DNA of 64,000 bases from NCBI GenBank assembly GCA_024227995.1, contig CP100465.1, positions 496,001-560,000 of the forward strand, written 5' to 3'. This document shows positions 4,172 to 59,809 of the stretch, piece after piece (the first letter of the stretch is position 1; every line of letters starts with the position of its first letter). The notes below the pieces were generated by a model. The model was not told where the DNA came from, did not search any database, and worked only from the letters and a program-made list of their open reading frames with translations. This stretch comes from Halomicrococcus gelatinilyticus. Its GTDB lineage: Archaea > Halobacteriota > Halobacteria > Halobacteriales > Haladaptataceae. The position numbers and the translations under genes are program-made.

Positions 4172-4275
4172 GGACAGTACGAGAATCAGAATGACGAGAT
4201 ACCTTCGCCAGGCAAGGAGGAAGTGAAATATTGCGCTTCCGCCCTTCTACTGACGAGCTCATGTCAGAATACTAT

Positions 4276-4347
4276 AGTCCCGGGCGGATTCGAACCGCCG
4301 TCAATGGCTCCAAAGGCCATTATGATTGGCCACTACACCACGGGACT
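4276..4347 (-). tRNA. trnQ: tRNA-Gln (anticodon TTG)
   Basis: Reading the minus strand from 4347, a 7-bp acceptor stem (AGTCCCG with CGGGACT) encloses a D arm, an anticodon stem ATGGC/GCCAT with loop CTTTGGA (anticodon TTG, Gln) and a T arm containing GGTTCGAATCC. It is 72 nt with no encoded CCA and no intron. In archaea this tRNA is charged through Glu-tRNA(Gln) and GatDE/GatCAB. It lies alone between the 306-aa orphan gene and the end of the suf operon. Confidence 0.95.
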
Positions 4348-57852: not shown

Positions 57853-58308
57853 TCAGTTCCGGAACTCGTCCTCGGTGACGCGGACGACGACGGTGTCTTC
57901 TACGTCCCGCAGGTCGTACCCCGGCACGCCGTCCTCGGTCCGGGCGACGTACATCGGTTCGACCACTTCCTCGTCCTCGGTGACGCCGTACACTTCGAGG
58001 AGGGCGTCCGTCTCGGCGGGGCGCACCCCGCCGTCGCGGACTTCGGCCGCGAGGTCGCGCGAGAGCCACTCCTCGTCGCTGACGCTCGGCTCCAGGATGA
58101 GCGCGTCGTCGACGAACCGCACGAGATACCAGTTGAGGTCGTTGAGAAGCGAGACGGCGGCACCGAGGCTGATGGTCTCCAGTTCGAGACAGTTGCGGTA
58201 CGGCTCCCGGAGGTCGTAGGTCGCGAGGGCGTCGCGCGCCGTCTCCCGCGACAGGAGTTCGGCGCGCAGGTTCACGTCGTCGGAGCCGACGAGACAGACG
58301 CGAGTCAC
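57853..58308 (-). CDS. DUF5804 family protein
   Basis: A 151-aa acidic haloarchaeal protein. Characteristic pieces: TRVCLVGSDDVNLRAELLSRETARDALATYDLREPY and VSLLNDLNWYLVRFVDDALILEP. I assign DUF5804 from this pattern; the function is unknown. A CTTTACGG box ~25 nt upstream supports the ATG at 58308. Confidence 0.8.
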   Translation of the reverse strand: MTRVCLVGSDDVNLRAELLSRETARDALATYDLREPYRNCLELETISLGAAVSLLNDLNWYLVRFVDDALILEPSVSDEEWLSRDLAAEVRDGGVRPAETDALLEVYGVTEDEEVVEPMYVARTEDGVPGYDLRDVEDTVVVRVTEDEFRN

Positions 58309-58402
58309 TGGTCGGAGGGTGGGAGCGGCCCCGTAAAGCGGTTTCGACTCGCTCAGGGCGACATTGTTCAGATTAGCGCTTCCCCACCGCTGGTGTCGTG
58401 GG

Positions 58403-58594
58403 GGCGGTCAACCGCCCTCCTGGCGGATTGAAAGGGCGAGACCGGCTTGGCGTCTCCGCGAGCGCAGCGAGCGGATGGCCCGGACGACGAGCACAGCGAG
58501 TCGTCCGGCGAACCCCGGCGAAGTAAGCACCGCAGTCGCCGCAGGCGGCGAGGAGCGCAGCGAGCCGCGGGAGTCAAGCCGGTCGAGGGCTTTC
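58403..58594. ncRNA. Multi-hairpin non-coding element with conserved 11-nt loops
   Basis: This fills most of the 331-nt gap between the DUF5804 gene and thiI and contains no convincing ORF. A long-range stem pairs GACCGGCTTG (58440-58449) with CAAGCCGGTC (58575-58584), extended by GAAAG/CTTTC (58430-58434/58590-58594). Inside are three hairpins (58455-58475, 58481-58507, 58545-58568) whose loops are GAGCGCAGCGA, GAGCACAGCGA and GAGGAGCGCAGCGA. The stems differ completely while the loop is kept. Before it, 58403-58416 is a GGCGGT/ACCGCC hairpin that competes with a CCGCC/GGCGG pairing to 58426. Could be a structured RNA, a palindromic repeat element or a mobile remnant. Confidence 0.55.
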
Positions 58595-58639
58595 TGACAG
58601 TCTCCCCCTCTCCCAACTACTTATCTGAACACTCCCCGG

Positions 58640-59809
58640 CTATGGCGAGACGACCTCGGCGTCGGCGATCGCGGCCGCCGCGCGCTCGAAGAGGTCGTCC
58701 GGTTCGGCGTTCTCGACGATCTCCAGCGTCGCGTTCGTCTCCGGGAAGTCGGGCGCGATGCGGTTGCAGCCCGCCGGGATGGTCGAGTCGGTGAACGTGC
58801 CGATCTCGCGGGCGCGGTCGACGATAGCCGTCTTGTCCATCGTCAGCAGCGGCCGGTGGATCGGGAGATCGGTCGCCTGGCTCGTCACCCCGAGGTTGCT
58901 CGCGGTCTGGCTGGACTTCTGGCCGACGGCCTCGCCGGTGACGATGCCCGAGGCGTCGACCTCGCGGGCGACGTGTTCGGCGACGCGGAACATGAACCGT
59001 CGGTACGCGAGCATCCGCGCCGCGCCGACCTCCTCGACGAGCAGGTCCATCACGTCGCCCGTCGGCACCTTCCAGACGCGCATGTCGAAGTTGGGAGCGA
59101 ACGCGGCGAGCGTCCGGACCGTCTCCATCGCGCGGGCCTCGTGGTCGGCCCCGCCGTAGTCGCCCAGGTCGAGATAGACGGGGACGACCGGCGACCCGCG
59201 TTTCATCATCTCCCACGTCGCGACGGGCGAGTCGATGCCGCCGCTGACGAGCGCGACCACCGTCGACTGGCTGCCGAGCGGGAGGCCGCCGGGGCCGTCC
59301 CGCTTCTCGACGAAGACGAACGCATCGGACTCGCGGACCTCGACGTGGAACGTCAGGTCGGGGTCGTCGAGGTCCACCGCGGGTTCGTCGACGACGTTCC
59401 AGACGGCCTCGCCGCCCTGTCGCTCGACGTCCTCGCTCGTGAACGGGAGGTCCTTGTCCGCGCGGCGAGCGCGCACGGCGAACGTCCCGCCGACGTCTAG
59501 TTTGCTGGCGGCGTCGGCGAGCGCGGTCCGGACGGCGTCGAGTTCGGGAGTGACGACCACCGCGGGGCTGGCCGACCGGACGCCGAAGGTGTCGGCCGCC
59601 GCGTCCGTCGCCGCGTCGACGGTCTCCTCGTCGGCGTGGACGAGCAGGCGCGACCACCGGCGTTCGACCTCGGCGTCGACGCCGCGCGCGTCGAGCGCCG
59701 CCGCGAGGTTGTCCCGGAGCCGTCGCTCCATCTCCGACTGCACCTTCCCGCTCTTGATTCCCACGTCCCCGTGCCTGACGAGGACGGTGTCGGCTCCAGG
59801 GGGATGCAC
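58640..59809 (-). CDS. thiI: tRNA sulfurtransferase ThiI (4-thiouridine synthase)
   Basis: The 389-aa protein transfers sulfur to uridine 8 of tRNA and/or for thiamine synthesis. An N-terminal ferredoxin-like/THUMP domain (VLVRHGDVGIKSGKVQSEM; FAVRARRADKDLPFTSEDV) is followed by a PP-loop ATPase (VALVSGGIDSPVATWEMMKRG) and GEAVGQKSSQTASNLGV. The C-terminal rhodanese domain of E. coli ThiI is absent, as usual in archaea. The stop lies about 46 nt from the multi-hairpin element. Confidence 0.95.
   Translation of the reverse strand: MHPPGADTVLVRHGDVGIKSGKVQSEMERRLRDNLAAALDARGVDAEVERRWSRLLVHADEETVDAATDAAADTFGVRSASPAVVVTPELDAVRTALADAASKLDVGGTFAVRARRADKDLPFTSEDVERQGGEAVWNVVDEPAVDLDDPDLTFHVEVRESDAFVFVEKRDGPGGLPLGSQSTVVALVSGGIDSPVATWEMMKRGSPVVPVYLDLGDYGGADHEARAMETVRTLAAFAPNFDMRVWKVPTGDVMDLLVEEVGAARMLAYRRFMFRVAEHVAREVDASGIVTGEAVGQKSSQTASNLGVTSQATDLPIHRPLLTMDKTAIVDRAREIGTFTDSTIPAGCNRIAPDFPETNATLEIVENAEPDDLFERAAAAIADAEVVSP

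Follow-up and report, generated by a model that had tools for sequence, protein, structure and literature searches.

Location and limits of the element

The window analysed here is a 64,000-bp stretch of the Halomicrococcus gelatinilyticus genome (G000, C1:496001-560000). A 331-bp gap within it (58309-58639), flanked by a DUF5804 gene and thiI, harbors an element whose extent is set by inverted ends at its two limits (Table 1). An earlier note on this DNA, prepared from the sequence alone, had placed the element at 58403-58594, which excludes both ends. The 13-nt ends match their family versions at 11 of 13 positions on the left (58364-58376) and at all 13 on the right (58620-58632), and each is followed outward by four further bases. 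Two TATA-like motifs close to the element had been proposed as possible promoters on either side; both overlap the inverted ends, and transcription from these motifs is unsupported because they sit in terminal inverted repeats.

The 10-bp long-range stem and its GAAAG/CTTTC extension described in the earlier note are both present. Of the three hairpins thought to be enclosed by this stem, the first and second are real but belong to a 58-nt insert that is missing from the family consensus. The third is not a feature of that consensus: GAGGAGCGCAGCGAG, previously taken for its loop, forms one strand of the predicted rod and is paired with the AAGCACCGCAG strand. The insert is also present in three further copies of the same genome, in two of which the second loop is reversed. 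By DNA search, the nearest relatives of the window copy in G000 are two near-full copies and one shorter copy, at 80-90% identity.

Table 1 Features of the element and its surroundings (positions within the window).
Feature	Position	Strand	Remarks
DUF5804 gene	57853-58308	minus	bounds the gap on the left
Whole element, probable MITE copy, 277 bp	58360-58636	plus	bounded by an inverted end on either side
Left inverted end, GACA + TTGTTCAGATTAG	58360-58376	plus	TTGTTCAGATTAG differs from GTGTTCAGATAAG at 2 of 13 positions; holds AGATTAG
5' flank of core, CCTGGCGGATT, conserved	58419-58429	plus	copy comparison
P0 5' strand, GAAAG	58430-58434	plus	partner 58590-58594; 106 of 109 copies have one of four paired versions
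P1 5' strand, GACCGGCTTG	58440-58449	plus	10-bp stem of the earlier note; partner 58575-58584
58-nt insert, loops GAGCGCAGCGA and GAGCACAGCGA	58453-58510	plus	hairpins 58455-58475 and 58481-58507
P2 5' strand, CCCCGGC	58513-58519	plus	partner 58564-58571
Rod strand AAGTAAGCACCGCAG, conserved	58521-58535	plus	alignment and consensus fold
Tip hairpin P3	58536-58551	plus	sequence and length vary among copies
Rod strand GAGGAGCGCAGCGAG, conserved	58550-58564	plus	third loop of the earlier note; alignment and consensus fold
P2 3' strand, GCCGCGGG	58564-58571	plus	consensus fold
P1 3' strand, CAAGCCGGTC	58575-58584	plus	covariation
GAGGG internal-loop strand, then P0 3' strand CTTTC	58585-58594	plus	P0 3' strand at 58590-58594
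Right inverted end, CTTATCTGAACAC (exact) + TCCC	58620-58636	minus	holds the minus-strand GATAAGTA region
thiI	58640-59809	minus	bounds the gap on the right

Copies and distribution

A DNA search returned matches in 35 of 59 genomes and at 23 places within G000, where a covariance model (R1, E up to 0.01) identified 28 copies of the core. The prediction of a repeat family with many dispersed copies per genome is thereby borne out. All 28 copies lie on C1, which accounts for 2.87 of the 3.72 Mb, and none on the three smaller contigs. Across 294 genomes of the phylum, scanned with stricter filters and with scoring of no more than 12 candidates from each, R1 matched in 48, all within the family or order of the window's host. 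Within the order, 103 of 293 genomes contain the exact core pattern (92 of 255 if good genomes alone are counted; 40 of 87 genera), compared with two occurrences overall for the reversed control pattern. Viral contigs yielded one record with the exact pattern. No phage record matched a 171-bp query, and the 15 plasmid records that did all carry haloarchaeal names. In a copy on a plasmid of halophilic archaeon DL31 the ends are 346 bp apart.

The GAGCRCAGCGA loop emphasized in the earlier note is indeed enriched in the window (three occurrences vs. 0.25 expected), but by itself it fails as a marker of dispersed hairpins in G000: the stretches examined contain 44 matches to GAGYRCAGCGA, of which 10 have five or more flanking pairs, and a family defined by the GAGCGCAGCGA loop alone was rejected. 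Exact GAGCGCAGCGAG sites number 40 in G000 vs. 21 for the reversed pattern. A short 3' motif tried as a marker proved to be noise (25 and 33 matches vs. 28 and 31 for its reversal). Two regions of G000 C1, 2081300-2082000 (L245) and 2417150-2417900 (L250), contain a repeated hairpin, GTTCACC-GAGCGCAGCGA-GGTGAAC, among CGCCGACCGGGAATTGAACC blocks that by eye resemble the 3' part of a tRNA.

Element ends and target sites

Comparing copies side by side, we found that some have GTGTTCAGATAAG as their left end and CTTATCTGAACAC as their right end, at constant spacing from the core. With up to three mismatches allowed, the left end was recognised in 35 and the right end in 31 of 195 distinct copies, and both in 22 (a count of rows that includes two cores of one single element, L102); ends in the wrong orientation, used as a control, occurred three times each. 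The window copy, at 277 bp, is transposase-free, and other copies are 185-354 bp long. Identical ends occur 17 times per orientation in genome G031, paired about 677 bp apart, where they bound autonomous elements of about 690 bp encoding an IS6-type transposase (Pfam DDE_Tnp_IS240, 34.3 vs. 27 bits; NCBIfam transpos_IS6, 198.6 vs. 125 bits). The label IS6-type follows NCBIfam; a passage of Harmer and Hall holds that archaeal members ought to be taken out of the IS6 family (PMC6807381). Used as a query, the G031 transposase matches in 23 of 28 genomes of the family. In G000 the full-length protein is absent and three partial matches are found; since only fragments of the searched type occur there, the window copy is, as judged from sequence, probably no longer mobile.

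According to an excerpt of PMC7986276, IS6 elements generate 8-bp target repeats. The 8-bp flanks of the 22 two-ended copies agree at all positions in two (L017 and L057), at seven in two (L072 and L140), at six in two and at no more than five in the remaining sixteen. The window copy is among these sixteen, with agreement at just one of eight positions and hence no target duplication, and both its flanks and the preponderance of such copies (16 of 22) count against the interpretation favored below. An empty site was found for L057, a copy of genome G096. When the element and one repeat are removed, the joined flanks match G153, a congener of the host, unbroken across the 268-bp query at 85%, and match G133 over positions 12-252 at 80% with small gaps; against G096 itself they fall into two pieces overlapping at the repeat. 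G153 thus retains the uninterrupted target site. At the window locus, a core near the DUF5804 gene is missing in 26 of 27 relatives, as scored by gene vicinity and not by junction alignment. From the IS6-type ends together with the 8-bp duplications and the empty site of other copies, we conclude that the elements most likely constitute a MITE family. The exact duplications of L017 (G030) and L057, GCCCGCCC and CGAGCGTG, are unlike each other; each of these elements immediately precedes a transcription factor S gene, and their hosts belong to two genera.

A known mobile-element end had been named in advance as one way in which the copies might be explained away. This applies to the outer ends, which are IS6-type, but not to the conserved centre, which the ends leave unexplained. 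As the recognised left end is missing in 160 of 195 copies, IS6-type ends moreover account for only part of the family.

Predicted fold and covariation of the core

The centre of the element represents a family of approximately 115 nt. An alignment of 46 copies (A1, MAFFT) was obtained from 58 eligible ones after 12 had been dropped by hand with no fixed rule, and its RNAalifold consensus is one unbranched rod of 28 pairs, 17 of them showing double changes. Pairing is seen in 93.9% of the A1 cells vs. 76.6% after shuffling and 28-42% with the partner strand slid. In a larger alignment of 127 copies fitted to the model (A2), and therefore biased toward it, double changes occur in 26 of 28 pairs and 95.2% of cells are paired. 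The outermost helix, P0, illustrates this turnover: among 109 copies, selected with a pattern that permits these very forms, GAAAG/CTTTC occurs in 66, CAAAG/CTTTG in 26, CGAAG/CTTCG in 8 and GGAAG/CTTCC in 6, with 3 mixed. Between the changing helices, the internal loops GGG/GGG or GGCGA/GAGGG, GAA/GA and GCA/GA are largely fixed, as are the strands AAGCACYGCAG and GCGCAGCGAG, both of which are also part of the search pattern used. The structured-RNA prediction, which called for covarying stems, is therefore matched by strong covariation across haloarchaeal genomes that exceeds both the shuffled and the slid controls, the two standards against which it was judged.

Folded as RNA, the plus strand of the window copy reaches a z score of −3.14, with none of 200 shuffles as good; for the minus strand z is −1.50, and 16 of 200 shuffles are as good. 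RNA parameters recover P1, P2 and P3 on the window copy and, if folding starts at 58430, GAAAG/CTTTC as well. The element matches no Rfam 15 family at the gathering score: a search of 58300-58700 gave nothing at E up to 1, the whole window yielded a tRNA at 4275-4347 only, and 11 loci bearing other copies returned only tRNAs. In five orthologous pairs, identity of the core and of the adjacent 100 nt on the right was 97.5 and 81.0%, 100 and 100%, 96.7 and 93.0%, 78.0 and 78.7%, and 87.5 and 67.0%; the core is thus better kept than its flank in three, equal in one and slightly worse in one, three further aligned pairs having been set aside as different insertions. In the orthologous long copies L086 and L105, inspection by eye revealed G-T/A-T and T-A/T-G exchanges in the outer stem, with the stem kept.

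Matched arms do not necessarily imply selection on a fold, as template switching can perfect imperfect palindromes and keep their arms complementary. Such a process would account for arms that are unrelated in sequence and yet match at 94% (2252 of 2385 cells), and the hairpin inserts and loop reversals indicate that events of this kind happen. However, it would wipe out the fixed mismatches GGG/GGG, GAA/GA and GCA/GA that are conserved between the covarying helices, and it would give no preference for G·T over A·C of the sort reported below. Because the internal mismatches persist, a palindrome-perfecting process is disfavored, and we regard it as very improbable that the pairing arose with no selection on the fold.

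Strand preference

Wobble pairs provide information on which strand is folded. In the two outer helices, counted in fixed register, G·T outnumbers A·C by 48 to 13 (p = 8e-6, an optimistic value because the copies are related) in the 159 of 195 copies counted, the other 36 being without anchors. The first copy set gave 28 vs. 8, and a free-offset variant for P1 gave 32 vs. 10; the fixed-offset count is the one relied on. In head-to-head copies the count, three vs. zero, is uninformative. Without selection, equal numbers of the two mismatches are expected, and due to the excess of G·T the plus strand seems to be selected as a single strand, probably as RNA.

By itself the G·T excess fits RNA and single-stranded DNA alike, and the core might instead serve as a hairpin substrate for a nuclease or transposase while DNA is replicated or transferred, much like REP sequences and IS200/IS605 ends. 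Use of one DNA strand would likewise be expected to produce both the G·T excess and the plus-strand bias, both d(GNA) loops and tandem G·A pairs give stable DNA structures, and head-to-head pairs and reversed insert loops are events at the DNA level. On the other hand, the ends and 8-bp duplications are of the DDE type, for which a hairpin is not needed, and DNA parameters applied to the window copy give different inner pairs and a z score of −2.13, in contrast to −3.14 and the recovery of P1, P2 and P3 with RNA parameters. We consider a role as single-stranded DNA unlikely.

Placement relative to genes

The model gave 155 distinct hits. An ORF predicted by our own crude gene caller overlaps 23 of them, a further 19 fall at the edge of a locus, and the other 113 could be classed. 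Among the classed copies there is no orientation bias relative to the upstream gene (53 co-oriented vs. 60 opposite), and their distribution over gap types (71 tandem, 24 divergent, 18 convergent) resembles the background of 258 gaps (153, 60 and 45, respectively). The window core itself, on the plus strand, points against both of its neighbor genes. Due to the near-equal representation of the two orientations, read-through from upstream genes would yield antisense copies of the core as often as sense copies.

These patterns bear on the idea that the core regulates its neighbors in cis, as a terminator, leader switch or insulator. The window copy does lie between two genes on the same strand, and the positions of L017 and L057, each directly preceding a transcription factor S gene, would also suit such a role. 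The absence of orientation bias, gap types that mirror the background, a window core opposing both genes and the lack of any Rfam hit up to E = 1 argue against it, and we give the idea very little credence.

No recurrent neighbor gene emerged, as 397 flanking proteins formed no cluster larger than three, and a partner gene of the kind that would suggest a TnpB guide RNA or similar was rejected on this basis. One plasmid copy has an HNH gene as its neighbor, but this gene was dismissed as a partner since it is not repeated in two other annotated plasmid regions.

G015 is the only one of 27 relatives with a core in the same gap, and this core is of the long form with the tip replaced. In three others, G002 (by pattern) and G003 and G025 (by eye), the DUF5804 gene is preceded by a 5' domain similar to the one in the long form. 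Taken over the 28 family genomes, a core or 5' domain is found upstream of this gene in five (window 58309-58639, L203, L205, L225 and L228).

Forms of the family

Three types of copy can be distinguished: type A with a GGCGA/GAGGG loop, type B with a GGG/GGG loop, and a CAAAG/CTTTG type found mostly in Halorubrum. Head-to-head copies also exist, and three of them (L019, L102 and L169) bear outer IS6-type ends 332-340 bp apart. Among the 35 copies of the third type, 4 are flanked on both sides by a different outer inverted repeat; the wrong-way controls gave about two and two.

In Halorubrum and some other genera the core is preceded by an upstream domain of the form GGTGGCGCG...GCGAGGGA...GGCTGGGGAGGCGTGAGG. 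Its pattern was encountered 44 times in the loci examined, mostly followed by the start of a core. The domain is conserved and apparently structured, consisting of two hairpins plus GGCTGGGGAGGCGTGAGG (e.g., L135:5628-5731, minus strand). It occurs at loci L063-L179, mostly from Halorubrum, and at L003, L044, L053, L059, L127 and L203; at L205, L225 and L228 it is present without a core. A possible likeness between this 5' domain and SRP RNA was abandoned as Rfam gives it no support.

Interpretation

The most plausible interpretation is that the window holds a copy of a MITE with IS6-type ends, likely moved by the transposase of insertion sequences that share them, whose centre of about 115 nt is maintained by compensating changes and is predicted to fold into a single RNA rod. 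We consider this combination likely on the evidence of the ends, the duplications and empty site within the family, the dispersal of the copies, the covariation and the G·T excess on the plus strand. Besides the flank mismatches and the copies lacking a recognised left end, the missing intact transposase in G000, the presence of copies in either gene orientation, the uneven preservation of the core in the five orthologous pairs and the G015 core in the same gap weigh against it. Mechanistically, an IS6-type transposase would act in trans on the element ends, and the core would be transcribed, either through read-through or in another way. A protein could then bind the rod, in which the G·A-rich internal loops are fixed, and thereby protect or process the transcript. 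Recognition of the rod by such a protein may also be the reason why different types of element retain the same core.

A broader proposition, which we put forward tentatively and hold to be somewhat less probable than its negation, is that the core is a structured RNA restricted to the Halobacteriales, where a single genome may have up to dozens of copies, and that it rides on varied transposon ends and is kept functional copy by copy. It would then be a mobile non-coding RNA gene that passes on its fold and not its sequence. Its carriers would comprise the IS6-type MITEs, the head-to-head pairs and the longer form of Halorubrum, which has a 5' domain of its own.

MITE interiors are usually held to be unconstrained, and here one fold outlasts a near-complete turnover of its stems across an archaeal order, with the identical core type found in elements of differing surroundings. 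If the rod is RNA, it would represent a widespread haloarchaeal structured RNA that lacks an Rfam entry and spreads as a transposon, and the sites where it lands may gain protein-binding or processing sites.

Comparison with known systems

No description of the core was found in the open-licence literature searched. ERIC, NEMIS/Correia and similar bacterial MITEs are intergenic, dispersed and palindromic, fold as RNA and are read through into transcripts; their stems are conserved in sequence and are not known to be turned over with covariation. The element described here differs from them in being archaeal and in having stems that are turned over with covariation. REP/BIME sequences are extragenic imperfect palindromes, often arranged as inverted pairs. 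Compared with these, the core at about 115 nt is set apart by a subset of copies with DDE-type ends and 8-bp duplications. REP/BIME sequences and their RAYT transposases are the subject of PMC2817692.

Among haloarchaeal repeats, the MITEs, SMRs and PATEs of Haloquadratum are short, transposase-free and mobile, and the MITEs share transposon ends (PMC3119063, in extract). As portrayed in that extract, they are defined by ends and palindromes, with neither a fold supported by compensatory changes nor a core extending across the order. Another group for comparison is that of the IS6 MITEs, notably MITEHarch3 of ISfinder, named in a section of PMC6807381, and the two of 227 and 336 bp in the accessible portion of PMC7986276. 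The excerpted accounts of these elements mention no conserved internal fold, wider family or other end types. As far as the same excerpts describe them, they resemble the present element in being non-coding, in their IS6-type ends, in their similar length (185-354 bp for the copies described here) and, to judge by the name MITEHarch3, in a haloarchaeal host. MITEHarch3 may be a relative of the element in the window.
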